Shown one piece after another: positions 11,528 through 55,006 of a stretch of DNA of 57,352 nucleotides. Position numbers and translations under genes: made by a program. Below the pieces are notes generated by a model. The model made no database searches. It was not told the DNA's origin and was given only the letters and a program-made list of their open reading frames with translations. The DNA comes from Oscillospiraceae bacterium (GTDB lineage Bacteria; Bacillota; Clostridia; Oscillospirales; Oscillospiraceae). The stretch covers positions 1-57,352 of the forward strand of contig JAFTYM010000019.1 in NCBI GenBank assembly GCA_017461585.1, read 5' to 3'. Within the stretch, counting starts at the first letter, position 1. Each line of letters begins with the position of its first letter.

Positions 11528-11728
11528 TTACTTGCTGAGGTTGTTCTCGTAAGCTTCGATCATCTTCTTGACCATCTGACCGCCGATGCTGCCAGCCTGA
11601 CGGGAAGTGAGCTCGCCGTTGTAGCCGTTCTGAAGATTTACGCCAACCTCGCTGGCTGCCTCCATTTTGAAGCGGTCCATAGCCTCGCGTGCGTTGGGGT
11701 TCATGATCTGATTAGAACTCTTAGACAT
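11528..11728 (-). CDS. Alpha/beta-type small acid-soluble spore protein
   Basis: A 66-residue protein with the alpha/beta SASP signatures: EVGVNL, followed by GELTSRQAGSIGGQMVKKMI. These proteins coat spore DNA, force it towards an A-like form and protect it from UV and chemical damage; the EVGV-region Glu is the site cut by germination protease in the family. It shows the organism forms spores. The start at 11728 is set by AAGGAGATG, and the longer reading frame upstream is spurious. Expression would be forespore-specific; a sigma-G-like element (GCATAA and a -10 like sequence) lies upstream but matches poorly. The 310 bases up to the recombinase gene hold no other gene that I can support. 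Confidence 0.95.
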   Translation of the reverse strand: MSKSSNQIMNPNAREAMDRFKMEAASEVGVNLQNGYNGELTSRQAGSIGGQMVKKMIEAYENNLSK

Positions 11729-12037: not shown

Positions 12038-12874
12038 ATGGAAAGACGAGTTCTGACTGATGTTATTATTATTGGCTATTCTGAGTTTTTAATAACAGAA
12101 GAAAAAAGCAAAGCGACTTGTGAAAAGTACATCAGGGATGTGCGCAGATTTAAAGTATATACAGGAGGTGAACCGGTTACAAAGGAAATGGTTGTGGCAT
12201 GGAAAAACAGCCTTGTAAATAACTACGCCGTTCGCTCGGTAAATTCCATGCTGGCTGCAGTAAACAGTCTGTTTGACTTTTTGGGCTGGAGCGACTGTAA
12301 GGTCAAAAACTTAAAGCTTCAGAAGCAGATGTACTGTGCAGAGGAGAAAGAACTCAAGAAAACGGAGTATTTGCGTCTGCTTGAGGCTTCAAAGAAAAAT
12401 ATACAGCTGAATCTGGTTTTGCAGACGATCTGCGGAACGGGTATAAGAGTTTCTGAGCTGAAGTATTTCACAGCTGAGGCAGTTGCGGCAGGTGAGGTGA
12501 ATATTAATTGCAAAAGCAAAGTGCGCAGAATACTGATCCCCGGTAAGCTCAGGAAGCTGCTTTTGGATTATGCAAGAAAGAGGAAAATTACAGAAGGTGC
12601 GATTTTTGTGGGCAAAAACGGAGCGCCGCTGGACAGAAGCTGTATATGGCGGCAGATGAAACGCCTGTGCGAAGCTGCAAACGTCAAAGAATCAAAAGTA
12701 TTTCCCCACAATCTGCGAAAGCTGTTTGCACGGTCATTTTACATAGTGGAAAAAGATATAGCCCAACTGGCGGACGTTCTGGGGCACAGCAATATAAACA
12801 CAACGCGAATTTATATTATGACCACGGGAGAGGAGCATCTTAAGAAGATAGAACGGCTTGGGCTGGTTGTATAA
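12038..12874 (+). CDS. Tyrosine recombinase (phase-variation type, XerC/D-like)
   Basis: A 278-residue tyrosine recombinase. The N-terminal SAM-like DNA-binding domain spans about residues 8-85 and the catalytic domain 105-275. The catalytic set is complete: R137 (GTGIRVSEL), K159 or K161 (CKSKVRR), H224 and R227 (FPHNLRKLF), H250 (LGHSN) and nucleophile Y259 (TTRIYI). No excisionase, phage or conjugation gene lies next to it. Twelve bases after its stop begins the first of two 22-bp inverted sites enclosing a promoter, so it is probably the dedicated invertase of that switch. The start ATG follows GCGGAGGAG. Confidence 0.92.
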   Translation: MERRVLTDVIIIGYSEFLITEEKSKATCEKYIRDVRRFKVYTGGEPVTKEMVVAWKNSLVNNYAVRSVNSMLAAVNSLFDFLGWSDCKVKNLKLQKQMYCAEEKELKKTEYLRLLEASKKNIQLNLVLQTICGTGIRVSELKYFTAEAVAAGEVNINCKSKVRRILIPGKLRKLLLDYARKRKITEGAIFVGKNGAPLDRSCIWRQMKRLCEAANVKESKVFPHNLRKLFARSFYIVEKDIAQLADVLGHSNINTTRIYIMTTGEEHLKKIERLGLVV

Positions 12875-12886
12875 AAACAAAAAAGC

Positions 12887-12908
12887 CACATAATCAGCAT
12901 TATGTGAC
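12887..12908 (+). other. Left recombination site of invertible segment
   Basis: CACATAAT-CAGC-ATTATGTGAC: two inverted arms around a 4-bp asymmetric centre, the usual form of a tyrosine recombinase core site. Its exact reverse complement is at 13137-13158. A further half-site CACATAATG lies 15 bp to the right at 12924-12932. Confidence 0.75.
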
Positions 12909-12951
12909 AAATATCGCACGGTGCACATAATGTTTTGGCGCTGAAGACATA

Positions 12952-12992
12952 AAAAGTACACCCCCATTACGTTTTTAGTGAATGAGGGTGTA
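12952..12992 (-). terminator. Terminator-like hairpin inside the invertible segment
   Basis: TACACCCCCATT (12957-12968) pairs with AATGAGGGTGTA (12981-12992) with one mismatch. Read on the minus strand it is followed by CTTTTTA, so it terminates only leftward transcripts in this orientation. Confidence 0.55.
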
Positions 12993-12998
12993 GTGATT

Positions 12999-13145
12999 AT
13001 GCGCTTTTTTAAAGAAGCAAAAAATACCAACAATTTAATGTTTATTTTAGCTTACTTGCCCTTGCTTTTTGATATGCGCTGGTGTATAATTTTATCCGTC
13101 TTATTATGCGTATTTTTTAATAATAGTATTTTCGAAGTCACATAA
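12999..13145 (+). CDS. Possible 48-residue hydrophobic peptide inside the invertible segment
   Basis: An ATG at 12999 behind GAGGGTG opens a 48-codon frame that ends at a TAA within the right recombination site. The peptide starts with MRFFKEAKNTNN and continues as a hydrophobic stretch (LMFILAYLPLLF and CIILSVLLCVFF). It overlaps the promoter at 13062-13090. Because T-rich DNA easily gives hydrophobic frames, it may be chance. Confidence 0.25.
   Translation: MRFFKEAKNTNNLMFILAYLPLLFDMRWCIILSVLLCVFFNNSIFEVT
13062..13090 (+). promoter_or_regulatory. Strong promoter in the invertible segment
   Basis: TTGCTT (13062-13067), exactly 17 bp, then the consensus TATAAT (13085-13090). It points to the zinc-ribbon gene and would give a leader of about 110 nt that includes the palindromic right site. 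Confidence 0.75.
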
Positions 13146-13160
13146 TGCTGATTATGTGAC
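13137..13160 (-). other. Right recombination site of invertible segment
   Basis: GTCACATAAT-GCTG-ATTATGTGAC is a perfect 10-bp-armed palindrome with a centre that is the reverse complement of the left site's CAGC. 13137-13158 is the exact inverted copy of 12887-12908. A related half-site, TACATAGTG, lies 15 bp to the right (13176-13184), the same spacing as at the left site. Confidence 0.75.
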
Positions 13161-13206
13161 AAACGAAATCAAGCTTACATAGTGCAGACGAGGCGGAAGT
13201 ATAAAA

Positions 13207-14298
13207 ATGCATGAAACATTGAGGGAATATTGCCTGAAGAGCGGAAAAGAAGCCCTGCTTGAGCAATGGCATCCCACCAAAAACGGAATACTGACGCCTG
13301 ATGATGTGTCACACGGCAGCTCTAAAAAAGTCTGGTGGAGGTGCAGCGAGGGACACGAATGGCAGAGCACACCTTACGCCAGAACAGGCAAGGGCAACGG
13401 CTGTCCTTACTGTACAGGTAAAAAGGTTTCTGAGGAGATGTCGCTGGAGGCAGTTTACCCCGATGTTGCCGCCCAATGGCACCCCACAAAAAACGAACGA
13501 CTTATGCCGAATTCCGTTCTGCCGAACAGCCACAGATCCGTCTGGTGGAAGTGCGGCAAAGGGCACGAGTGGAAAGCTCTGATAAAATCACGCGTGGAAG
13601 GCAACGGCTGCCCCGTATGTGCAAACAAGGTGGCAGTGCAGGGCACGAACGATCTTGAGAGTACCCATCCACACCTTGCAAAAGAATGGCATCCTACAAA
13701 AAACGGCAAGCTTAAGCCGTCACAGGTGGTGGGAGGCTCAAACAGAAAAGTCTGGTGGAAGTGCGAAAAAGGTCATGAGTGGCAGACAGAGATATTCGCA
13801 CGAACCGCAGGCAACGGCTGCCCCGTGTGCACGGGAAAAACCGTAGTTGCAGGCGAAAATGACCTTGAGAGCAATTTCCCTGAGATCGCAAAGCAATGGG
13901 ATTTTGAAAAAAACGGCACACTCCGTCCTGACAGTGTCTCCGCATACAGCAACAAGCGAGTGTGGTGGAAATGCAAGCTGGGACATGAGTGGCAGAGTGC
14001 GGTTTCAAGCAGAACTGCTGAGAGAACAGGCTGCCCCTACTGTACGGGTCACAAAGTTCTGCAGGGCTTTAACGATCTGAAAACAGTTCAGCCTCTGGTT
14101 GCGGCGCAATGGCACCCCACCATGAATGAGGGACTTGAGCCCACCATGGTGACCGCAGGCTCACGAAAGAGAGTCTGGTGGCGCTGCTCTGACGGACACG
14201 AGTGGAAGGCTGTTATCTACTCAAGAGCAGGCGCGGACAAATGCGGCTGTCCCGTATGTGCAGGAAAACCTGCCAGAAAGAACAGACGCTGGTATTAA
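13207..14298 (+). CDS. Five-repeat treble-clef zinc-ribbon protein (DUF4379-like)
   Basis: A 363-residue protein made of five repeats of about 70 residues. Each repeat reads QWHPTKN, then VWWKC-x-x-GHEW, then GCPxC, giving one Cys, one His and a CPxC pair as zinc ligands per repeat. This is the pattern of the DUF4379 probable zinc-ribbon (treble clef) domain, which occurs in proteins with nuclease or unknown roles; no nuclease domain is attached here. Only the fourth repeat deviates (QWDFEKN). It has no signal peptide, so it should be cytoplasmic and may bind nucleic acid. It is the first gene after the invertible promoter and thus its probable target. Confidence 0.85.
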   Translation: MHETLREYCLKSGKEALLEQWHPTKNGILTPDDVSHGSSKKVWWRCSEGHEWQSTPYARTGKGNGCPYCTGKKVSEEMSLEAVYPDVAAQWHPTKNERLMPNSVLPNSHRSVWWKCGKGHEWKALIKSRVEGNGCPVCANKVAVQGTNDLESTHPHLAKEWHPTKNGKLKPSQVVGGSNRKVWWKCEKGHEWQTEIFARTAGNGCPVCTGKTVVAGENDLESNFPEIAKQWDFEKNGTLRPDSVSAYSNKRVWWKCKLGHEWQSAVSSRTAERTGCPYCTGHKVLQGFNDLKTVQPLVAAQWHPTMNEGLEPTMVTAGSRKRVWWRCSDGHEWKAVIYSRAGADKCGCPVCAGKPARKNRRWY

Positions 14299-14373: not shown

Positions 14374-17300
14374 ATGACCAAGAAGAGAATTTTGTCGTTT
14401 TTCATGTGCATAATGCTCATCGTCGGCTTACTGCCCATGGGCGCTATTGCATTTGCTGCAAGCGACACAGAGTATCTGTTCATCGCAACAGACCGCCATG
14501 CCAATACTTCTATTATTGGTAACATTATCAATAATATTGAAAGTAATATCGGCGAGAATGAGATTGATTATCTTGCACTTGGCGGCGACATGGTAGGCTC
14601 AGGTAACTCTCATCCTGCTTACAACAGTTCCGAGGTGCTGGGTGAGGCAACAGGTGCTACAACCAGTCTGTCTGCTGCTAATGTAGACATCGTTGCGGGC
14701 ATTCACGATATGAACGTAACTGATGATGCGGGCATCGTTCTGCCTTATCAGGGCGGCTGCGCAGAAATCTACGCAGGTGACAAGTACTACGTCTATGGTG
14801 TAGAGGAGTACTGCATCTCCGAGGACTCTAATGAGAGCAACTGGTCTGCTCAGGCTCAGAAGTTTGTTGATTGGGCAAACGGCTCTGCTATTGATAAGTC
14901 CAAGGCTATTATCGTTGTATCTCATTATCCTCTTCACGCAAAGCGTGACGACAACGATGGTGCTTACTACTGGCATCAGGCGCTGAATGAAGTTGCAACA
15001 GGCGGCGGCATAACCGTTGAGCGCGATATCGTATTCTTCCACGGTCATAACCATACTGTAGACGGAAACGAGTATGTCTACAATGTAGGCGATACTATGG
15101 AAATTCAGAACGGCAGCAGCACCACAAGCGATACAATTTATTATACATACGCTACTGCAGGTTATCTGAACCAGAACAGCAAGGCAACGCTTGTATCCAT
15201 CACAGATAATGAGATCGTACTGCAGAAGTACTCAACAAGCGGAAGCGGCACAGCTATGGCTGCCATCACCCGTGTTGCGCCCACACTCAGCTCTATCGCA
15301 ATCTCCGGTACAACAGAGTACACAGTAGGCGATGCGCTTGCTCTCACAGTAACCGCCACATACTCTGACGGCACAACTGCGGATGTAACTGCGGACGCAA
15401 CACTTACAGGCTATGATATGAGCGTTGCGGGCACACAGACCGTAACTGCGGCTTATGAAGAGCTTACTGCGACGATCAATATCACAGTTACAGATCCCTC
15501 CACAACATTAAATACAGTTACATGCTGGGACGATACTGATACAGTTTCCGTACAGGCAACAGCTATAGGTCTGACAGATATCTCTGCGACAAACATGTCC
15601 TTTGATTACGATGTTTTCAACAACGCATTTACAGACCACATGGCATTGGAAATCGCTCTTACAGGTCATACTGAAGGCAACGAGGTAAAGTATTCCATCG
15701 CAATGGTCGAAAATATGGATACTACCAACCTTAAGGTATATTACCTTGACGGTGAGGAAGCAGTTGAGATCGAGTGTGAAGTTGTGACCGATGCACAGGG
15801 CAACAAATATGTCGAGTTTACAACAGCGTATGTCGGCACATTTGCCTACGGCTCTCCCGTAGTTCCCGAGGGCTATGAGATCTACTCTGTAGAGCTTTCC
15901 AATATCCCCACAGATGTTTTCGTAAACGACAGCATTGACATGACCGAGGCGCAGATCAAGGTCACATATAAAATGGACGGCGCTGAGGACTTTATCCGCA
16001 TGCTCACCGTATACGACTATGATTTTTCAAACTTCAACGAATTCAGCACAAGTGAGGTCGGCGAAGAAGAGATAATCTTTACATTTGAGGGCATATCCAC
16101 ATCATTCTACGTTGATGTTTGGAACAATGAGTTCGAAGTAAACGGCGTAACAGTTCAGGTCGGCAGCGCTGACTTCGGCGTAACAAGCGCAAACGTTGCA
16201 GAGAGCACAAATGAAAATGTCAAGAGCGCTGTTGCATACGTTATCAGCGGTGATAAGTATGTTGCTTATGATATCTCTCTGAACTTTGAAAGCGGTTATA
16301 CTCAGACCGCAACCGAAAAGACAGTTATACTTCCCGTTCCCGACGGTGTAGCAAACCCTGTTGTTTACTACGTTTCCGAGGACGGCTCTGCAGTTGAACC
16401 GATGAATGCAACGCTCGATGACAACGGTACAGTAACATTTACAACAACTCACTTCTCTACATACGTTGTAGGTGAGTCTACCGAAATCGAGGTTGCAGAT
16501 CCCAATACTGAGGAAGTAACCACAGGCTCTACAACAAAAAAGACTGTATATGTTTTAACAAGCAGTATTTCTGCCGGCAACTCATATCTGATTGTTAACT
16601 CTAACTCTGCGGGAGACAGACAGGCACTTGCTAACAACAATGGCTCTGTTGCTGCAACAGGTGTAACAGTAAGCTCAGGCGATGTTGATGGCGATGGTGA
16701 CTCCGAGACATACATCGAGCTTAATGATGCAGCTGATGAGCTGTGGGAAGTTGGCAGCGGCTATACTTTTGAAAACGGTGGATATTATTTAGGTTATACT
16801 ACATCAGGCAATAACTGGAATCAGTCATATACCTTTGGTTTAAGCACTACATCCAGAAACTGGAGTTACTCCACCAGCAATAATCGTCTGTCAACTTCAG
16901 TTGGAAACTGGAATTCAACTACGTACTACCTCCGTTACAACAACGGATGGACATGGACCAGCAGTAATAATGGTAATACATCCGGCAGAAGCATCTATTT
17001 CTATGTACCAACAGAAATAACGATTGATACCACCACAACAGGTACATACGCTATTGCAGGTAACCCTGAAGAAGTCAAAACTGTTGTAGATGAAGACGGA
17101 ACCACCACAACAACACTTAGCAGCAATATTACATTTACCGACAGTAACGGCAGCGAGAGCACACTTACAGCAGACGAAATTGCTGCTCTGGGCGGTACAT
17201 TATCTTATGAAGTTTATACAAACGGTTCTGTAACCGGTGACCCCAACGGAGTTATTACCAGCATCTCTGCGGACGGTACTGTCACATTCTCAGGTGAAAT

Positions 17301-20300
17301 CGGTAAAGCGCTGGTCAAGGTTTCCTATACATGGGGCGACAATAATGAGTATACGATCGATAACTACATCACCGTTTATGCTTCCGCACCCTACTACACC
17401 ATTGATCTGCACAAAGCTGAGGTTGCCTACACAGAGGCTTCCATTACAGAGTTTGCAGAAGGTGAGACATACTACACTCTGACAGACGGTGTTTACTCCG
17501 TTGCAACAGAGTATGTAGAGGGCACAACATACTACACAGCATCCGTAACAGTAGGTGAGGAGATCACAGCTCCCGTTGCGCTTAAGGGCGTTCAGGCAAA
17601 CGACACTTACTCCGTATGGGCTGTTATCAAAGCGTACACAAGCGAAAATCCCGACGGCGAGGATCTTGAGGACGTTGCAGACGACAGAATCTACTGGACG
17701 GTCTCCGATACAACTATCGCAACCATCGACAAGCACACAGGTGTGCTCACATTCACAGGCGAAAACTACGGTACATTCACAGTAACCGCACGTTACCTTG
17801 ATGAAAACGGCGAGACACTTTGTGAAGACACAATTACAATTTCCGTTACAGAGTCTGAGTACGTAGTTCCCGGTGACGGCACAGACGACTTCCCCGAGTA
17901 CCCCAACGAAGGTTCTGTCCGTTTCGACAAGACAGCAACTGCAGTCGGTAACTACTCCGAGACAGGTATCGCCAAGGTCGAGCTTTCCATGACCGGCGTT
18001 CCCTATACAACAGGTTCCGAAATCGATGTTGTCATCATGCTGGATATGACCGGTTCTATGTCCGACACAGCAATGGCAGCCGCAGAGGAATCCGCTATTG
18101 CTTTTGCTGAGCAGATCGTCAAGAACGAGGACGGTACATTCAACGATAACCGTATCTGCGTTATGGCGTTCAACAGCGGTTCCAAGTCTCCCTATACTTA
18201 TTGGGAGCTGGGCACTATCACCGCTGATCAATGGGACGACTTCTGCACCGCAGTTCGCGGCGCTAGCGAAGATCAGGTAAGCGGCGGTACGCCCTATGAT
18301 GCGGCGCTTGAGAAGTGTAAAGATGTACTTGCTGCTGCCAAGACCGACGGTACAGGCAATGACCGCCAGCAGTTCTGCGTATTCGTCTCCGACGGTGGTC
18401 CTACTTCCTATGAGTACATTACAAACTATGACGCGGTGAAGGCTGGTACTGCTACTGAATATACCACATCTTCTGCATCCGCAACGGGCGGCGCCAACCA
18501 GAGTGACAGCAACTTTGCAACCATCGCTACCTACACTCACGAGTATTACTCTACTCTGATGAAGGACGCTGGTGTTACCATGTTCTCCGTCCTGACAGGT
18601 CTGAGTGCTGACAGTTATCCCAACTGTGCTACCATCATGGAGAACATCGCATCCAGCTCTGACAACGCATATGTGGTTGAGGATGGCAGTGATACTTCTG
18701 CGATTACTGGTGCTTTAAGCAGCATCGCACAGAAAATCCTTGAAGCTGCAAAAAATATTGTTGTTGAAGATAAGATAGGTGAAAACTACACTATCAACTT
18801 CTCCGTTCCCGGTTACGGAACAGATAATGCACTTACTTCAGAAGAGCTTGATAATACAACCAATTTCTATATTCAGGTTGTAGAGTACACCCTCGATGAG
18901 AACAAGAACCGTACAGGCGATCCCACAGTTCTTGAAAACTTCACCTTTAATGAAGACGGCACACTTAAGAGCCATACAGTTGACGGTGCAGCCTGCGGCG
19001 ATACTTGCAGCCATATAACGTTTGCAGCAGATGGTGTAACAATTACTGCAATCGACGGTACTTACTTTGAGTATAAGTCTGATGACAGCGGCGAGTATCT
19101 GACTTGGAAGGCAGAAAAGCTCACAACTACAGAGCTTGCTCTCCAGTACTTCGCATATCTTGACAACTCTTCCGGTCTGTCTGAAGAAGAAATCAAGAAC
19201 GGCGAGCAGATCCCTGCAGGTACTTATTACACAAACGAATACGCAACACTTACCTATGAAAACTATAAGGGAAATACTGTTCAGCAGGAGTTCCCCGTTC
19301 CTCAGATGACATGGAACGGTGCTCAGGTTTCTTACGTATTCTATCTGGTAAACGAGGCAGGTCAGCCTGTTAACCGCGCAGGTAAGGTAGTTCCCTTTGC
19401 AGAGGCTGTATACGTAACAGATGTATATACTCACCATATTATCTGGAACGACCTTGAGCAGGCTGCAGGTCTGGATGCATCTTATCTGGCAGAAGATATA
19501 GTTCCCGATGTATATGCATTGTACGACAATGACGCATCATACTCCATCCACGTTTATGAAGATGAATCCGAGGTCAACCTGAATAACCACTTTGTAATCG
19601 GCGGTGATGTAACCGACGAGTACAACACAATAACAAACAGTTGGACTAATGCAAATACTACCTATGTATTCAATACAAAGGCAGACGCAAACAAGTACAA
19701 CGGTGCCGGCGCATATATCGCCTACGATGATACTCAGGTGGCAACAGCATACTTCTGTAAGAGTGCGGCTATCGAAGGCGCAACATACACTACAAGTATC
19801 GATGCTGCAACAGGCGCAACTCTTTACACCGTTAACCTTAACGGCAATAGCTATACTCCTGTAGACGGTGAGACACAGGTTACAGAAGAGTATATCCAGA
19901 GCAAGGGCGGCATTACCACAAACGCAACTGTAATTGACGGCTACGTTTACTATGTAGACGAAAACGGCGCTGTTTATACAATCGTTGAAAAGACTGACGG
20001 CAGCGAAGTACACGAAGGCTTTGACTTCCACAACACAACAGTTGCTTTCGCAGTTGTCTGGAAGCCTGAACTCGCGGAAGATGCAGTTGTTGTTGACTAC
20101 GGTCTCGACGTTGTTATCGATGTAACTGCAAACGACGCTATGGCAGCAGGTGTTGTCGGTGTCCGTGCAGATGCTCCTGCAGACGTTGAGATTAACAGCG
20201 GTAACTACACAGCGGCTAAGAGTACAAGCGCTGATGTTACAATCGACGGATACAAGATCGGTACTGCAACTGTTGAAGCTAATTCCATTACATCAGTTCG

Positions 20301-22041
20301 TTTCTCTCTTGATAAGACATACGGCATGCAGTTTACTGAGCCTGCTAAGTTCTACTATGAAGCTGATGTAAACTACTACGATTCGAATAACGTACTGAAG
20401 ACAGAAAGCATGTACTCTTCCGTTACAGTTATCCCTGCAACAACTGTCTACTATGAGGATGACTTCGTAACGCTGACAACATACGCTAAGAATGATGAAG
20501 GCGTATACGCAGGAACTCTCGGCAACGGTTGGGATACAAACTCCGTATCTACAACAAAGCATCAGGACACAGACCGTCCCGGTGAAAACAAGCTGGGCAG
20601 CGGATATGACGCTGACAACATCTACGGATACGACAGCGCATACAAAACTCTGTCCACATACTCCATGAACAACTCAGCGAAGATAACCGTCAACGCAGAT
20701 AAGCGCGGTGAGGCAACCTTCACATTCTGGGGTACAGGCTTTGATGTTGTCTCCATGACAAGCAACACAACGGGCAGCATCACGGTTGAGGTATTTAATG
20801 CAGACGGTGAAAATGTAAAAACTACATTTGTTGACACATACTACGGTATGAATCATGATGGTACAGTTAATGAAAATGCTGTAAACGATCCCACAATGAT
20901 CTATCAGGTTCCTGTTATCAAGATTTTTGATCTGCCTTACGCTCAGTATAAGGTAACGATCACAGCAGGTTATAACAAATACTTTGATCATACAGGCAGC
21001 GGCAGTTACGACTTCTATCTTGATGCTATCCGCATCTACGATCCCACAGGAAACCTTAATGAAATAGCAAATGATGCTTACAAGGCAGACGGCGAAAGCG
21101 GACCTGTTTACACAGAGCTGAGAAACAATATCATCGCAGCTACCGGCTATACAGTTACAGAAAATGCTGACGGCACAGTAACAGTTACAGGCAGTGCAAT
21201 TAACGGCGCTGTATTTATTGATTGCACAGACAGTACTTCTGTCATTGCAGACTACGTAAACCACGGACCCAATAATGAACTGTATTTGAAGAATGGTCAG
21301 GCAATCGCATTTAATGTTGTTACCACAGGCGCTGCAGATGTTCAGCTGGGTATCAAGATGGCAAACGGTGATCCCGTAACATATACGATCTCTGCGACAA
21401 ACGGCACAGATACCATCAGCGAGAGCGTTACTGTTTCCACCGCAACAGACATGTACTACAGCATCCTCAAGTATGCAAAGTACGGTACTGTTACAATTAA
21501 AAATACATCAGGCGGCATCCTGTCTCTGACCAATATCAAGGTAACACAAGAGCAGGCTTCTTCCGATGTCGCAGCTGCAAATCTGCTGTGGATGGATGCG
21601 GAGACAACAGGATTTGCACTTATGAGCTTCAGAGCATACAGCCCTGAGAGCACAGAGCCTGAGGACACAACCACAGAGGACACAGAGTCCGACGTAACAG
21701 AGCCTGAGGACACAACCACAGAGGACACAGAATCCGACGCTGCAGAGCCCGAAGACACAACAACAGAGGATACAGAATCCAATGTAACAGAGCCTGAGGA
21801 CACAACAACAGAGGATACAGAGTCCGACGCAACAGAACCCGAGGACACAACAACAGAGGACACAGAATCCGATGTAACAGAACCCGAGGACACAACAACA
21901 GAGGATACAGAGTCCGATGTAACAGAACCCGATGACACAGAGACAGAAGAAACTGAGTCCGGCTTTGCCGCAACAGTCAAGACAGTTGTCAATGCTATTG
22001 CTAACTTCTTTAAGAATCTGTTCGGCTGGTTGTTCAACTAA
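14374..22041 (+). CDS. Giant secreted protein with metallophosphoesterase, Ig-like and VWA domains
   Basis: 2555 residues. A signal peptide (1-28) ends at AIAFA. Residues 30-310 are a calcineurin-like metallophosphoesterase: DRH, GGDMVG, GIHD in place of GNHD, SHYP and GHNH. Residues about 307-373 look like a bacterial Ig-like (Big_3) domain. After several unassigned beta-rich parts, a von Willebrand A domain begins near 1210 with a complete MIDAS start (DMTGS). A beta-rich module opening VYYEDDF follows near 2020. The C-terminus has six 15-residue repeats (TEPEDTTTEDTESDV) and a tail ending NFFKNLFGWLFN. There is no LPXTG, SLH or dockerin motif, so the anchoring mode is unclear. Possible adhesin or extracellular enzyme. 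The RiPP precursor gene starts 18 bases downstream. Confidence 0.85.
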   Translation: MTKKRILSFFMCIMLIVGLLPMGAIAFAASDTEYLFIATDRHANTSIIGNIINNIESNIGENEIDYLALGGDMVGSGNSHPAYNSSEVLGEATGATTSLSAANVDIVAGIHDMNVTDDAGIVLPYQGGCAEIYAGDKYYVYGVEEYCISEDSNESNWSAQAQKFVDWANGSAIDKSKAIIVVSHYPLHAKRDDNDGAYYWHQALNEVATGGGITVERDIVFFHGHNHTVDGNEYVYNVGDTMEIQNGSSTTSDTIYYTYATAGYLNQNSKATLVSITDNEIVLQKYSTSGSGTAMAAITRVAPTLSSIAISGTTEYTVGDALALTVTATYSDGTTADVTADATLTGYDMSVAGTQTVTAAYEELTATINITVTDPSTTLNTVTCWDDTDTVSVQATAIGLTDISATNMSFDYDVFNNAFTDHMALEIALTGHTEGNEVKYSIAMVENMDTTNLKVYYLDGEEAVEIECEVVTDAQGNKYVEFTTAYVGTFAYGSPVVPEGYEIYSVELSNIPTDVFVNDSIDMTEAQIKVTYKMDGAEDFIRMLTVYDYDFSNFNEFSTSEVGEEEIIFTFEGISTSFYVDVWNNEFEVNGVTVQVGSADFGVTSANVAESTNENVKSAVAYVISGDKYVAYDISLNFESGYTQTATEKTVILPVPDGVANPVVYYVSEDGSAVEPMNATLDDNGTVTFTTTHFSTYVVGESTEIEVADPNTEEVTTGSTTKKTVYVLTSSISAGNSYLIVNSNSAGDRQALANNNGSVAATGVTVSSGDVDGDGDSETYIELNDAADELWEVGSGYTFENGGYYLGYTTSGNNWNQSYTFGLSTTSRNWSYSTSNNRLSTSVGNWNSTTYYLRYNNGWTWTSSNNGNTSGRSIYFYVPTEITIDTTTTGTYAIAGNPEEVKTVVDEDGTTTTTLSSNITFTDSNGSESTLTADEIAALGGTLSYEVYTNGSVTGDPNGVITSISADGTVTFSGEIGKALVKVSYTWGDNNEYTIDNYITVYASAPYYTIDLHKAEVAYTEASITEFAEGETYYTLTDGVYSVATEYVEGTTYYTASVTVGEEITAPVALKGVQANDTYSVWAVIKAYTSENPDGEDLEDVADDRIYWTVSDTTIATIDKHTGVLTFTGENYGTFTVTARYLDENGETLCEDTITISVTESEYVVPGDGTDDFPEYPNEGSVRFDKTATAVGNYSETGIAKVELSMTGVPYTTGSEIDVVIMLDMTGSMSDTAMAAAEESAIAFAEQIVKNEDGTFNDNRICVMAFNSGSKSPYTYWELGTITADQWDDFCTAVRGASEDQVSGGTPYDAALEKCKDVLAAAKTDGTGNDRQQFCVFVSDGGPTSYEYITNYDAVKAGTATEYTTSSASATGGANQSDSNFATIATYTHEYYSTLMKDAGVTMFSVLTGLSADSYPNCATIMENIASSSDNAYVVEDGSDTSAITGALSSIAQKILEAAKNIVVEDKIGENYTINFSVPGYGTDNALTSEELDNTTNFYIQVVEYTLDENKNRTGDPTVLENFTFNEDGTLKSHTVDGAACGDTCSHITFAADGVTITAIDGTYFEYKSDDSGEYLTWKAEKLTTTELALQYFAYLDNSSGLSEEEIKNGEQIPAGTYYTNEYATLTYENYKGNTVQQEFPVPQMTWNGAQVSYVFYLVNEAGQPVNRAGKVVPFAEAVYVTDVYTHHIIWNDLEQAAGLDASYLAEDIVPDVYALYDNDASYSIHVYEDESEVNLNNHFVIGGDVTDEYNTITNSWTNANTTYVFNTKADANKYNGAGAYIAYDDTQVATAYFCKSAAIEGATYTTSIDAATGATLYTVNLNGNSYTPVDGETQVTEEYIQSKGGITTNATVIDGYVYYVDENGAVYTIVEKTDGSEVHEGFDFHNTTVAFAVVWKPELAEDAVVVDYGLDVVIDVTANDAMAAGVVGVRADAPADVEINSGNYTAAKSTSADVTIDGYKIGTATVEANSITSVRFSLDKTYGMQFTEPAKFYYEADVNYYDSNNVLKTESMYSSVTVIPATTVYYEDDFVTLTTYAKNDEGVYAGTLGNGWDTNSVSTTKHQDTDRPGENKLGSGYDADNIYGYDSAYKTLSTYSMNNSAKITVNADKRGEATFTFWGTGFDVVSMTSNTTGSITVEVFNADGENVKTTFVDTYYGMNHDGTVNENAVNDPTMIYQVPVIKIFDLPYAQYKVTITAGYNKYFDHTGSGSYDFYLDAIRIYDPTGNLNEIANDAYKADGESGPVYTELRNNIIAATGYTVTENADGTVTVTGSAINGAVFIDCTDSTSVIADYVNHGPNNELYLKNGQAIAFNVVTTGAADVQLGIKMANGDPVTYTISATNGTDTISESVTVSTATDMYYSILKYAKYGTVTIKNTSGGILSLTNIKVTQEQASSDVAAANLLWMDAETTGFALMSFRAYSPESTEPEDTTTEDTESDVTEPEDTTTEDTESDAAEPEDTTTEDTESNVTEPEDTTTEDTESDATEPEDTTTEDTESDVTEPEDTTTEDTESDVTEPDDTETEETESGFAATVKTVVNAIANFFKNLFGWLFN
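21652..21960 (+). repeat. 45-bp tandem repeat at the 3' end of the giant gene
   Basis: Six in-frame units of 45 bp encode TEPEDTTTEDTESDV with small changes, and a seventh degenerate unit (TEPDDTETEETES) follows. This is an acidic, Thr-rich stalk likely to vary in length. Confidence 0.9.
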
Positions 22042-22059: not shown

Positions 22060-22317
22060 ATGAAAAAAGTATATAACAAGCCCCAAATCATGTTTGAGAG
22101 CTTCATTCTCAGCACAAATATTGCAGGCGACTGTGAAGTGGATACTGACCTTAAGAGCAACGATGATTGCGGTCTGGACTTTTCGGGCAAAGTAGTATTT
22201 CTTGACACCATGAACGGCTGCAAAGGCGGTATCGAAGTCGAAGATGTAGGCGGAGATGGAATACATAACGGTATATGCTATCACATTTCCCAAGGTCAGA
22301 ATCTCTTTAACTCTTAA
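22060..22317 (+). CDS. Probable RiPP precursor peptide, four cysteines
   Basis: An 85-residue peptide without a signal sequence. The first 20 residues (MKKVYNKPQIMFESFILSTN) follow a leader pattern I associate with clostridial small peptides encoded beside radical SAM genes: a KxYxKP start and an FESF segment. The rest holds Cys 25, 37, 54 and 73 and is rich in Gly and Asp, as expected for a thioether-modified core. It is followed by a strong hairpin and then by genes for a kinase-like protein, a radical SAM/SPASM enzyme and a PqqD-like protein. Modification, possibly Cys thioether bonds as in ranthipeptides or sactipeptides, is inferred from these neighbours. Start: ATG behind GAGGAGGGAGG. 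Confidence 0.7.
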   Translation: MKKVYNKPQIMFESFILSTNIAGDCEVDTDLKSNDDCGLDFSGKVVFLDTMNGCKGGIEVEDVGGDGIHNGICYHISQGQNLFNS

Positions 22318-22326
22318 TCAACTCAA

Positions 22327-22358
22327 GAAAGCCACGCCAAATGGCGTGGCTTTCCTTA
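22327..22358 (+). terminator. Attenuator hairpin between precursor and maturation genes
   Basis: A perfect 12-bp stem (22327-22338 with 22343-22354) with a 4-nt loop, then TTTCCTTAAT. Such hairpins allow more precursor than enzyme mRNA in peptide clusters. The weak T run suggests partial readthrough. Confidence 0.75.
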
Positions 22359-22376
22359 ATAGTGCGAGGTAACCCT

Positions 22377-23147
22377 ATGAGTAAGAACAAACATAAGGCA
22401 AAGGGTAAAAATAGCGGCAAAGTACTCCCGTGGGTAGTTTGCGTACTGCTTATTGTTGTAGTTGTTGTGCTTGCGGTACTGATACGCAATGCATCTGCAG
22501 CGCAGGATTTACAGGACGATACAGGGGGAACTGAGAATACCGATACAGCAGTATCTGTGCCTGTTGTGACCATGAAGGATGAGTCCTTGGCATATAACCT
22601 CGGCAGCGGTATATGTATTGACGGCCTGCTGTCATACGCAGGACCTTATGCAGAGGACAAGACCGACGAAGTTGTCGTTGATGTCATGGCGATAAAAGTG
22701 ACGAACAACGGAAGCGAATATATTCAGACGATGGATATTATCCTTACTGACGGTACTACAGAAGCTCGCTTCTCTCTGTCAACACTTATGCCCGGCGATA
22801 CGGTGATCGTACCTGAGAGAAACCGTATGAGCTATAGTGATGAATTTGAGTTCAGTGAGGCAAAAACCGAAAATGTGGCATTCTTTGGATTTGTGCCTAC
22901 CATGTGTGAGGATAAGCTTGAAATAGTTTGCCTTGACGGTGTTATCAACGTGACAAATATTTCCGGTGAAGATATAACGGAAGATATTTTCGTTTATTAC
23001 AAGACCGAGAGCGACGGCATTTTCTATGGCGGAGTTACATACCGCGTCAGAATTTCGGGAGGCCTGAAGGCAGACGAGATAAGACAGGGCGCAGCTTCTC
23101 ATTTTAACACCGAAAGCAGCGCTGTTGTCTTTGTGACCTGCGGTTGA
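22377..23147 (+). CDS. Single-pass membrane protein in the RiPP locus
   Basis: 256 residues: a very basic cytoplasmic start (MSKNKHKAKGKNSGK), one membrane helix (about 17-38), then an outer domain of about 215 residues with beta-rich character. The domain contains KVTNNGSEYIQTMDIILTDG and later VTNISGEDITEDIFVYYKTE, which look like two related beta-sandwich halves, as in FxLYD-type domains. No peptidase or transporter motif is visible. The start at 22377 is chosen because it opens the signal-anchor and excludes the hairpin; GCGAGG lies upstream. It might assist display or secretion of the peptide, which is inference. Confidence 0.65.
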   Translation: MSKNKHKAKGKNSGKVLPWVVCVLLIVVVVVLAVLIRNASAAQDLQDDTGGTENTDTAVSVPVVTMKDESLAYNLGSGICIDGLLSYAGPYAEDKTDEVVVDVMAIKVTNNGSEYIQTMDIILTDGTTEARFSLSTLMPGDTVIVPERNRMSYSDEFEFSEAKTENVAFFGFVPTMCEDKLEIVCLDGVINVTNISGEDITEDIFVYYKTESDGIFYGGVTYRVRISGGLKADEIRQGAASHFNTESSAVVFVTCG

Positions 23148-23151
23148 CGAT

Positions 23152-24018
23152 ATGGAAAAGTATTACAGCTTTGCGGGAGTTGATTTAACGGTAATCATCC
23201 CGAAAGATAATATATACACACACGAGCGCCTGCTTGAGCCTTTTTCTGCGGAAAAAGGCAGCGACCCAAGCGTGTTTGTGTTTGAAGTTACCGACAAAAT
23301 AGACGCCCCTGCAGGAAACTGTGCCGGAACAGCCCCCGGTTTGCGCGTATACAGAGAAGGAGAGCTAACAGTCAAGTACTTCGGCTCTGTAAAAGACACA
23401 TGGGAAGGCGCGTATGCCCGCGTTGAAAGCTGCGGAAAAAACAATGAAGTGCAGCTGCTTAAGGCACGTTTTCCCCGCGAAGTGGGGGTGAAAACTGTTC
23501 TGAACTGTATCGGCGCAGAGCACCTTGTACCAAGAGCAGGCGGATTTGTTTTCCATTGTTCTTATGTGGACATAGGCGGCAGAGCGATAATCTTTACCGC
23601 TCCGTCCGGCGTCGGCAAATCCACTCAGGCGGAACTGTGGAAAAATCTGCGCGGTGCGGAGATCATAAACGGTGACCGCGCGGTGATTCGGTGCACAGAG
23701 AGCGGCGTATATGCCTGCGGAATTCCCTTTGCGGGAAGTTCGTCCTACTGCATAAATCGTGACCTGCCCCTTGCGGCTGTTGTGTATCTCGGACAGGCGC
23801 CTGCGACGAAAATACGCCGTCTTCATGGATATGAAGCTTTTTCAAGGATCTGGGAGGGCTGCAGCATAAATACATGGGATGAAGAGGATGTAAAAACAGT
23901 ATCTGACCTCGTCGCGCGCGCAGCTCAGAGTGTTCCCGTTTTTCATCTTATGTGCACACCCGATGAGTCGGCAGTTGCGGCATTGGAAAACATACTGGCG
24001 GAGGTGGAACGGAAATGA
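23152..24018 (+). CDS. HprK-like P-loop kinase of the RiPP locus
   Basis: A 288-residue protein with a C-terminal nucleotide-binding domain: Walker A TAPSGVGKST near residues 148-157 and GDRAVIR about 20 residues on. This is the layout of HPr kinase-like proteins found in peptide and pqqD-containing clusters, where their substrate is usually unknown. The N-terminal 120 residues are not assignable. Its stop overlaps the radical SAM start by four bases, so production of the two is coupled. Possible roles are phosphorylation of the precursor or of a carrier; neither is shown by the sequence. Confidence 0.75.
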   Translation: MEKYYSFAGVDLTVIIPKDNIYTHERLLEPFSAEKGSDPSVFVFEVTDKIDAPAGNCAGTAPGLRVYREGELTVKYFGSVKDTWEGAYARVESCGKNNEVQLLKARFPREVGVKTVLNCIGAEHLVPRAGGFVFHCSYVDIGGRAIIFTAPSGVGKSTQAELWKNLRGAEIINGDRAVIRCTESGVYACGIPFAGSSSYCINRDLPLAAVVYLGQAPATKIRRLHGYEAFSRIWEGCSINTWDEEDVKTVSDLVARAAQSVPVFHLMCTPDESAVAALENILAEVERK

Positions 24019-25136
24019 TACGCAGAACCAGCGAACCTCAGTTTTCAACATATTTTCATAGCCGCGGCAGAGCCTTGGGACTTCCCATAGCGGGGAATTT
24101 TGAGCTTACGGCGAGATGTAATTTCAACTGTCCAATGTGTTATATCCACCACAGCAAAGAGCAGATAGCCGCCAGCGGACGAAAGGAGCTTACGGCTGAG
24201 CAGTGGCTTGGAATCGCAGAGAGCGCAAAGAACAACGGTATGATCTTTGCGCTTTTAACAGGCGGAGAGCCCCTTTTGCGTGAGGACTTTTTTGAGATAT
24301 ACGGCGGCATGAAAAAGATGGGTCTAATGATCTCAATCAATACAAACGGCTCACTTTTGAAAGGTGAGATACTTGAGCGCTTTTTGAAAGATCCGCCTTT
24401 CAGGTTCAATATATCTCTCTACGGCGGCTGCAATGAAACGTATGAGCGCATGTGCGGCAGACCTGTATATGAACTGGTAAAGGAGAATATCCGCACGCTT
24501 AAAAACGCAGGGGTGGAAGTGAGCCTTAATCTCTCGGTAACTCCGTATAACTGCGGTGATCTTGAGCGCATTTATAAAGATGCGGAAGAGCTGGATGTGG
24601 GCGTGAAAATGACAACTTACATGTATCCGCCCGTACGTATAAAAGGCGACGGATGCGAGGCAAATGATCGATTGTCAGCACATGATGCGGCAAAATACAC
24701 CGTAATGTGGGATAAGCTTCGTTTGACGGACGAGATGTTTGCACAGCGCGCGGAAAATATGGCAAAATGCATTTCGGACGAACCTCTGTCCTGCCCAATG
24801 GAGGAGGGAGAGGGAGTTCGATGCAGAGCCGGAAGCAGCAGCTTCTGGATGACATGGGATGGCAAAATGCTGCCCTGCGGACTTATGACAGAGCCTGCGG
24901 CGTACCCGCTTGAGGTCGGCTTTGACAATGCGTGGAAGACCATCCGCGAGAAAACTGCTGAGATACGCATGCCGTCCAAGTGTGCTGCCTGCGGATATAA
25001 GGATATCTGCGGCGTGTGCGCTGCTGTGTGCAGCGCAGAGACGGGGGCATTTGATGCAGTTCCCGAATATGTTTGCGAGAAGATCTGTGAAACGGTAAGA
25101 ATAACACAGGAGTATTGTTCGGAAAGGAATTTGTAA
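24015..25136 (+). CDS. Radical SAM/SPASM peptide-modifying enzyme
   Basis: A 373-residue radical SAM protein. The [4Fe-4S]-SAM motif CxxxCxxC is C35-NFN-C39-PM-C42, the GGEP motif (TGGEPLLRED) follows, and a C-terminal SPASM region carries the auxiliary cluster ligands: RCRAG, LPCGL, KCAACGYKDICGVC and YVCEKIC. Enzymes of this kind make thioether or C-C bonds in ribosomal peptides, usually with help from a RiPP recognition element, here the PqqD-like protein encoded next. The probable substrate is the four-Cys peptide at 22060. The stop codon overlaps the next start (TAATG). Confidence 0.9.
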   Translation: MIRRTSEPQFSTYFHSRGRALGLPIAGNFELTARCNFNCPMCYIHHSKEQIAASGRKELTAEQWLGIAESAKNNGMIFALLTGGEPLLREDFFEIYGGMKKMGLMISINTNGSLLKGEILERFLKDPPFRFNISLYGGCNETYERMCGRPVYELVKENIRTLKNAGVEVSLNLSVTPYNCGDLERIYKDAEELDVGVKMTTYMYPPVRIKGDGCEANDRLSAHDAAKYTVMWDKLRLTDEMFAQRAENMAKCISDEPLSCPMEEGEGVRCRAGSSSFWMTWDGKMLPCGLMTEPAAYPLEVGFDNAWKTIREKTAEIRMPSKCAACGYKDICGVCAAVCSAETGAFDAVPEYVCEKICETVRITQEYCSERNL

Positions 25137-25396
25137 TGGTCATCAAAAAGGAAGTTATAAAACGAGAGATCGCGGGAGATACGATATTGGTCCCCGTTGG
25201 CGCGGCTGTGTATGATTCAAACGGACTGTATGCCTTAAATGAGCTTGGTGCCTTTATATGGGACATGCTGCCTGATGTAAGCGGCGCGGAGGAAATATGT
25301 GAACGCGTTGTTGCGGAATATGATGTATCGCCAAAAGAGGCAATGGATGATATTAATGAGTTTTTAGACACTCTGGGAAAACTCGGTATAATATGA
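25136..25396 (+). CDS. PqqD-like RiPP recognition protein
   Basis: An 86-residue protein of PqqD fold: beta-strand segment VIKREIAGDTILVPVG, the characteristic YALNELGAFIWDML turn-helix, and a final winged-helix part. Stand-alone PqqD-like proteins bind the leader of a precursor peptide and bring it to the radical SAM enzyme. The ATG at 25136 is preferred to TTG at 25115: it overlaps the upstream stop and AAAGGA lies 7 bases before it. Confidence 0.85.
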   Translation: MVIKKEVIKREIAGDTILVPVGAAVYDSNGLYALNELGAFIWDMLPDVSGAEEICERVVAEYDVSPKEAMDDINEFLDTLGKLGII

Positions 25397-30090: not shown

Positions 30091-30119
30091 TTGACATGAA
30101 TGATAATATCTGTTATCAT
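30091..30119 (+). promoter_or_regulatory. rplJ-rplL promoter
   Basis: TTGACA (30091-30096), 17 bp, TATCAT (30114-30119), just ahead of the L10 leader. Confidence 0.75.
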
Positions 30120-30124
30120 AATCG

Positions 30125-30229
30125 AGCGTTCCAAAGACAGCAGGTGGGTAAAGGCCCGTAAGTCCTGCCGAGGATAGCTTACATGATATGTTTGCTTTGT
30201 ATCCTTACGTCTTGGCGTAAGGGTTTTTT
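30125..30229 (+). ncRNA. L10 (rplJ) leader, autoregulatory
   Basis: The conserved core of the L10 leader is visible: CAAAGACAGCAGGTGGG, then AGTCCTGCCGAGG, which fold together to mimic the rRNA binding site of L10 (with L7/L12). It ends with a terminator: stem CCTTACG/CGTAAGG at 30203-30222 and a T run. In Firmicutes binding of L10 to this leader lowers expression of its own operon. Confidence 0.85.
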
Positions 30230-30271
30230 ATTTGGACGCGTTTTGACCAATATTTTCGGAGGTGAAAATGT

Positions 30272-54930: not shown

Positions 54931-55006
<76 letters not shown>

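Follow-up and report, generated by a model that had tools for sequence, protein, structure and literature searches.

Organization of the locus

The stretch of DNA analysed here, referred to as the window, is contig JAFTYM010000019.1 (57,352 nucleotides) of an Oscillospiraceae bacterium (assembly GCA_017461585.1; 2.07 Mb in 54 contigs, 79% complete). It carries a gene for a tyrosine recombinase, followed by two short inverted sites that enclose a segment with a promoter-like sequence and a hairpin. Behind the segment lie the genes of a DUF4379 protein and of a giant secreted-looking protein. Positions of all these features are listed in Table 1. As argued below, the locus very probably represents a phase-variation switch, the segment of which would be flipped by its own Xer-like recombinase.

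Table 1. Features of the putative switch and of the genes behind it (window coordinates)
Feature	Position	Strand	Remarks
Tyrosine recombinase, Xer-like	12038-12874	+	278 aa; PF00589 2.2e-21, PF02899 4.1e-7
Left site as intrinsic-terminator-like hairpin	12885-12908	-	Followed by TTTTTTGTTT; match of terminator scan
Left site	12887-12908	+	CACATAAT-CAGC-ATTATGTG plus AC; exact inverted partner at 13137-13158; fits family consensus
Putative invertible segment	12909-13136	.	228 bp, bounded by inverted sites; kindred segments in both orientations among relatives
Hairpin, probable insulator/terminator	12954-12997	+	Upstream of promoter; 71-nt stretches fold at z -4.50 (+) and -6.05 (-) relative to shuffles
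Candidate sigma-A-type promoter	13062-13090	+	TTGCTT (13062-13067), 17-nt spacer, TATAAT (13085-13090); points at DUF4379 gene (predicted ON orientation), 46 nt from segment end
Right site	13137-13158	+	Inverted copy of left site, exact reverse complement of 12887-12908
DUF4379 protein	13207-14298	+	363 aa, five treble-clef zinc-finger repeats; PF14311 1.6e-106 in 5 stretches; first gene behind putative switch
Giant secreted-looking protein	14374-22041	+	2555 aa, signal-like N-terminus (by eye), Big_3, VWA; 75 nt after DUF4379 gene

The recombinase scores below the NCBIfam equivalog cut-offs for XerA (126 against 220 bits), XerD (98 against 330) and XerC (91 against 335). Its residues R137, K159/K161, H224, R227, H250 and Y259, to which we ascribe catalytic roles, are shared by 80 or all of the 81 sequences in the alignment, the window included. 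This recombinase is likely to be the invertase of the adjacent segment. The left site (CACATAATCAGCATTATGTGAC) is located 12 nt downstream of the recombinase stop codon. Both sites are 22 nt long, complementary at 22 of 22 positions (100%) and separated by 228 nt. Each is composed of CACATAAT and ATTATGTG around a 4-nt core, CAGC in the left and GCTG in the right one, which is not palindromic. A third site was not found in the window at up to three mismatches (shuffled sequences contain 0.31 sites on average). A previous sequence-only reading of the locus had pointed out a lone recombinase with full catalytic set and, 12 nt past it, two exactly inverted sites with asymmetric 4-bp cores CAGC/GCTG; the open reading frame proved intact with its catalytic columns kept, and the sites were confirmed to the base.

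Inverted site pairs in relatives of the recombinase

Matches to the recombinase were retrieved from 118 of 400 genomes of the family (E <= 1e-25) and from 61 of 391 genomes of the class (E <= 1e-55), its own genome being counted in both. The first set of loci consisted of 79 regions from the upper part of the family list (some of those at contig edges were skipped), one region from genome G001, the window and the C33 locus described below, 82 in all. Exclusion of L130, which has no recombinase match, and of L059, L074, L094 and L121, with less than 300 nt behind the recombinase, left 77 loci. Inverted pairs of 22-mers within 900 nt were sought in these loci between -40 and +200 nt relative to the stop codon of the recombinase gene; sequences offset by 2 kb and shuffled sequences served as controls. 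Pairs agreeing in at least 18 of 22 positions are present in 61 of the 77 loci (window and C33 included), compared with 2 of 64 offset controls and none of 77 shuffles. At 17 of 22 positions or more, 67 loci, six offset controls and three shuffles contain a pair. One of these 67 pairs (L051) was dropped as spurious, its sites being 74 nt apart, and another (L086) failed the consensus register, so that 66 and 65 pairs, respectively, were kept. In all but two of the 66 kept pairs, the sites are 178-336 nt apart.

The second set comprised 40 regions, mainly from the best class-wide matches and including five loci of genome G024, a member of the window's own family; L196 was too short, which left 39. 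All settings were fixed from the first set before sites of the second were inspected. Inverted pairs agreeing in at least 17 of 20 positions occur in 33 of the 39 loci and in none of 34 offset controls or 39 shuffles. In one of them (L190), both arms and core are the same as in the window. Altogether, 114 loci of relatives were testable (75 from the first set, 39 from the second). Since pair rates are far above those of offset and shuffled controls in both sets, the arrangement seen in the window is not due to chance and is usual for this recombinase family.

Tyrosine recombinases of the PF00589 family also include integrases, and the segment might accordingly be the cargo of a small mobile element, with the sites serving for its attachment or resolution. 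However, the sites are inverted and not direct, a recombinase gene would not fit into segments of 158-491 nt, and throughout a whole class the arrangement is retained behind the recombinase. We therefore give this explanation very little weight.

Within the genus, represented by five genomes, no full close relative of the recombinase was found in the other four; the match in G001 covers 57 aa at the edge of a contig, and at the stricter threshold no recombinase was detected in that region (L130). For a truncated relative (L020) and a viral contig ending at the recombinase (L050), the sites fall outside the sequence. Viral contigs were scanned for a double site with the window's arms 215-245 nt apart, and none was detected.

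Two further observations concern individual loci. The contigs of L059, L074, L094, L121 and L196 stop less than 100 nt past the recombinase match, near the left site; this may reflect mixed orientations in the sequenced population that break assemblies, although it is only suggestive. L151 (2441-2752) and L155 (289-581) contain a third site that is in direct orientation to one of the other two, its start being 52 or 32 nt away. Besides inversion, deletions could occur in these two loci.

Cores are shared by partner sites and vary between loci

The family consensus of the sites is NACANAAT-N4-ATTNTGTN, in an 8-4-8 register. In the first set, positions 8-13 differ between partner sites in a single one of 390 cells, while up to 23 of 65 loci show differences at outer arm positions. 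The opposite holds when loci are compared with one another: disagreement amounts to 69-74% at the four core bases, and most arm positions are conserved. When both sets are taken together (65 pairs of the first set and 32 of the 33 pairs of the second), partner sites have the same core in 96 of 97 loci, and the core is palindromic in two of 97. Judged from the sequences, a core that is identical between partners and variable between loci is the mark of tyrosine-recombinase crossover. By the general mechanism of these enzymes, partner cores would match because strand exchange demands it, and exchange would itself maintain the match.

All sites are nearly perfect palindromes, and the left one extends into the end of the recombinase gene in many loci. 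Both features would also suit sites that are bound by the recombinase-like protein, or by another one, for regulation of transcription and without any strand exchange. Core identity between partners and not between loci is, however, required for strand exchange and not for binding; moreover, the catalytic residues are conserved and a flipped pair exists in a relative (see below). Regulation by binding is hence highly unlikely to explain the sites.

Several genomes possess two to four such loci with similar arms and unlike cores, for example G478 with CTAT, CAGC and TCTT. Selection for unlike cores within one genome was considered and not upheld. Cores differ in 31 of 36 within-genome pairs, and five pairs share their core, compared with 0.54 expected from between-genome pairs; two of these five are near-identical duplicates (L118/L119 and L197/L198).

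Anatomy and orientation of the segments

In 48 of the 57 first-set segments scoring 9 bits or more, the best promoter is located 20-60 nt from one end; this is also true of 31 of 33 second-set segments, where it often reads TTGACA-17-TATAAT. Orientation was called when a promoter was found 25-65 nt from a segment end. By this measure, the promoter is directed toward the downstream gene in 16, toward the recombinase in 43 and unclear in seven of 66 first-set segments; the respective numbers for the second set (n = 33) are 12, 19 and two. Among segments with an orientation call, the strongest hairpin precedes the promoter in 56 of 59 of the first set and 28 of 31 of the second, a bias that is partly geometric because more sequence lies on that side. 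Median energy of the strongest hairpin in the second set is -13.9, versus -10.0 in shuffles. In the window, too, the hairpin is followed by the candidate promoter near the segment end, which would place the assembled locus in the ON orientation.

A strong hairpin together with a weak promoter inside the window segment could also be accounted for if the promoter stood outside (e.g. by read-through from the recombinase promoter) and the flip placed or removed a leader terminator. The cwpV gene of Clostridioides difficile is reported to operate in this manner (PMC2784873). Most segments of relatives nevertheless contain a clear promoter 20-60 nt from one end with the hairpin on its far side, and the window TATAAT stands at a comparable distance, so we consider an outside promoter improbable and keep to a promoter carried by the segment.

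Direct evidence of inversion comes from a relative. L118 and L119 occupy two places on one 3.67-Mb contig. Over 960 bp at the recombinase they are 100% identical on the same strand, and 4347 bp behind the switch are 99.2% identical, again on the same strand. The 218-bp segment between these parts is 100% identical but inverted, and the inner half-sites are exchanged. In one locus the promoter TTGCAA-17-TAGAAT is directed at the downstream gene, in the other at the recombinase. This flipped pair shows that segments of this kind invert. Opposite orientation was recorded for eight of 29 alignable segment pairs from both sets, among them L088 as compared with L067, L076 and L087.

The left site was also matched by a terminator scan (Table 1), the total number of matches in that scan being within shuffle expectation. 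A T-rich tract beyond the left site is found in 11 of 65 first-set loci, versus none of 65 for the right site. With a looser criterion, the second set gave 20 of 33 left and four of 33 right sites. On this basis, the left site may, in part of the family, halt OFF-state antisense transcripts before they enter the recombinase gene.

A 48-codon open reading frame (12999-13145) with hydrophobic product overlaps the window promoter and, as judged by eye, ends within the right site. Its status as a gene was not upheld, the C33 segment, the only one compared, having no open reading frame of 40 aa or more.

A second switch in the same genome

Within the assembly, which is 79% complete, the site pattern (up to two mismatches) occurs only at the window locus and at C33:1803-2052, where the sites enclose positions 1823-2032. 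The C33 recombinase is 60% identical to that of the window and is followed by its own inverted site pair, 210 bp apart. Arms of these sites are as in the window, apart from one base in one outer arm; the core is TCTC and not CAGC. The C33 segment contains a hairpin similar to that of the window. Behind the switch, a cobalamin riboswitch, a gene for an HNH_repeat protein (PF18780) and, where the contig ends, the beginning of a gene for a protein with signal-like N-terminus follow one another. The riboswitch (positions 1564-1791 of this locus, L005; minus strand) is placed between the switch and the HNH_repeat gene, so that phase variation may be overlaid by B12 sensing.

Genes behind the switches

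First downstream genes were chosen mechanically for 99 pairs, which gave 98 genes (L184 has no downstream open reading frame; some picks are possibly wrong), and up to 400 N-terminal residues were compared with Pfam. The window included, the families found are DUF4379 (10), integrase N-terminal domain (10), response regulator (4), SPFH/Band 7 (4), pilin-type N-methylation (4), GGDEF (3), S-layer homology (2) and BspA-type leucine-rich repeats (2).

Behind these switches, the DUF4379 gene is recurrently followed by a gene for a secreted-looking protein. In all nine first-set switch loci with enough sequence, the window among them, the next product looks secreted by eye; the distance is within 100 nt in eight and about 550 nt in L062. 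A search based on DUF4379 yielded matches in 58 of 400 family genomes, and 30 loci were examined. A recombinase lies directly upstream in 15 of them, seven of which also belong to the first set. The next gene conforms to a simple signal-peptide rule in 12 of these 15 loci (one product is rather a membrane protein) and in six of the 15 others.

In ten loci (L118, L119, L078, L089, L095, L101, L111, L116, L128 and L129), the first gene behind the switch encodes a distant tyrosine recombinase-like protein, 28-31% identical to the window recombinase where measured. Such a switch would control a second recombinase. A different constellation is seen in L137 (1-1911), in which two divergent DUF4379 genes are separated by an inverted site pair and a promoter-like sequence (by eye), and the examined stretch contains no recombinase; it looks like an either/or switch.

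Several further observations relate to neighbouring sequences of the window. Metallophosphoesterase-like motifs were noticed by eye in the N-terminal part of the giant protein (14374-15100); its best profile matches lie elsewhere in the protein. A cluster reminiscent of peptide modification begins 18 nt after the giant gene (22060-25396) and encodes an 85-aa peptide, a 268-aa protein, a weak match to HprK/ScmC-type proteins, a radical SAM protein and PqqD. This cluster may belong to the switched operon. A hairpin follows the 85-aa peptide gene (near 22328-22353, by eye), and a 42% relative of the peptide is encoded at C13:37521. On the other side of the recombinase, the minus strand encodes a protein (11528-11728) that by eye resembles a small acid-soluble spore protein; a spore-forming lineage would thereby be suggested. 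At gathering thresholds, Rfam models detected only a ribosomal protein L10 leader (30113-30239) and a tRNA (54931-55003) in the window.

Proposed mechanism and its support

We propose that the recombinase binds both inverted sites just behind its own gene and that strands would be cut and exchanged within the 4-nt core (CAGC/GCTG), by which the 228-bp segment, a presumed hairpin-plus-promoter cassette, would be flipped. In the ON state, as assembled, the promoter would drive rightward transcription of the genes for the DUF4379 protein and the giant secreted protein, perhaps of further genes; both its activity and the length of the operon are predictions. In the inverted OFF state, the promoter would face the recombinase and its transcript might be stopped at the left site, behind which a T-run is present on that strand, with the site acting as a putative terminator; the hairpin would then separate the recombinase from the operon. 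The presumable benefit is cell-to-cell variation of a surface protein.

Some results weigh against this model or its generality. Pairs of sites are missing at the thresholds used from 10 of 77 first-set loci (at least 17/22; the pair of L051 is spurious in addition) and from six of 39 second-set loci (at least 17/20). Partner sites of the second set disagree in five of 216 cells at positions 8-13, a figure to which rows lacking an acceptable pair also contribute. The duplicated loci L197 and L198 carry identical segments in the same orientation, the C33 segment has no clear promoter, and at least eight of the 30 DUF4379 loci, with at least 1.2 kb of upstream sequence, have neither recombinase nor inverted pair. 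Pairing of DUF4379 with a switch is thus not obligatory, and the gene pair exists without a switch too. As to the window itself, its segment was seen in a single assembly and in one orientation; the -35 hexamer is weak (three of six consensus bases) and the promoter score is reached by 10% of 30 shuffled segments.

Weakness of the -35 hexamer, in a promoter the score of which is not significant alone, might indicate a decayed or locked switch, i.e. a copy that retains family anatomy and no longer flips. Partner sites are nonetheless identical over 22 nt, where drift would be expected to separate the cores, and both reading frame and catalytic set of the recombinase are intact; a locked copy is therefore quite improbable, and a functional switch is preferred.

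The sequence-only reading can be judged against these data. Its central claim, a recombinase-driven invertible promoter, is well supported as to mechanism by the 114 loci of relatives, the second copy at C33 and the flipped pair L118/L119. Its candidate promoter pointing at the zinc-ribbon (DUF4379) gene holds in sequence, spacing, direction and position within the family; taken alone, it is weak and was absent from the standard promoter scan because its -35 hexamer matches in three of six bases. It is credible because its position fits the family and not by its own score. The suggestion that, besides the zinc-ribbon gene, the giant surface protein is switched was strengthened by recurrence of the DUF4379-secreted protein pair (9/9 and 12/15 loci), and an effect on their transcription is to be expected from the arrangement of the genes.

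Relation to known systems

A close counterpart is found in a survey of hCom2, a defined gut community, in which invertons were called from reads (PMC11892184). Inverton group 139 of that survey contains 33 invertons, 32 of them from Clostridia and nearly all near a tyrosine-type recombinase of invertase group 35 (PMC11892184). By their description, these groups may correspond to the window's family. The passages considered describe group 139 without a core rule or a hairpin-promoter layout, and the word DUF4379 is absent from that report (PMC11892184).

The fim switch of Escherichia coli (FimB/FimE) resembles the window locus in having inverted repeats, a promoter (a candidate one in the window) inside the segment and recombinases nearby (PMC2784873). 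It differs in that two recombinases are involved, whereas the window has one, immediately before the left site, and a paralogue on another contig with its own sites. The cwpV switch of C. difficile likewise consists of a short segment (195 bp) upstream of a large surface protein (PMC2784873, PMC5903667); its promoter, however, is outside the segment (PMC2784873), while the promoter-like site of the window is inside. RecV, acting on cwpV and flagellar switches of C. difficile, is described as serving several switches genome-wide (PMC5903667, PMC5386303, PMC7446863). As in the window, the invertible site Cdi7 of C. difficile R20291 adjoins a recombinase gene, according to its description, and action of that recombinase is only suggested (PMC5903667). 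Invertible promoters of Bacteroides share with the window family a recurrent first gene behind the promoter (PMC11892184), which encodes an UpxY antiterminator there and a DUF4379 zinc-finger repeat protein here. Mpi is of serine type and serves many regions (PMC5903667), in contrast to the tyrosine recombinase of the window, with two loci bearing these arms in a 79% complete assembly.

Titles retrieved for DUF4379 deal with gene transfer to fungi and with group II introns in phages. No DUF4379-linked switch is described in the titles and abstract beginnings searched, most subscription journals being outside this search. The kind of system is already known; family anatomy, core rule and the DUF4379-secreted protein pairing were not found described in that literature search.

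A broader picture can be offered tentatively, as one possibility among others. Recombinase, left site, hairpin, promoter and right site might form self-contained modules that are placed before unrelated operons throughout the class. The shared arms would be bound alike by related recombinases, and the 4-nt core would serve as an address that guards against recombination between the several switches of a genome. In one branch, the DUF4379 protein might be a dedicated partner of the giant secreted protein, e.g. an UpxY-like elongation or antitermination factor.

Invertons have mostly been found by read mapping. The regular layout of this family lets the switch, and often its ON or OFF state, be predicted from the sequence alone where deep reads of a genome are lacking, and identity of partner cores as opposed to their near-randomness between loci provides a cheap footprint of live recombination. 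For DUF4379, a family of unknown function, the pairing with secreted proteins suggests a role in phase-variable surface proteins that can be tested.

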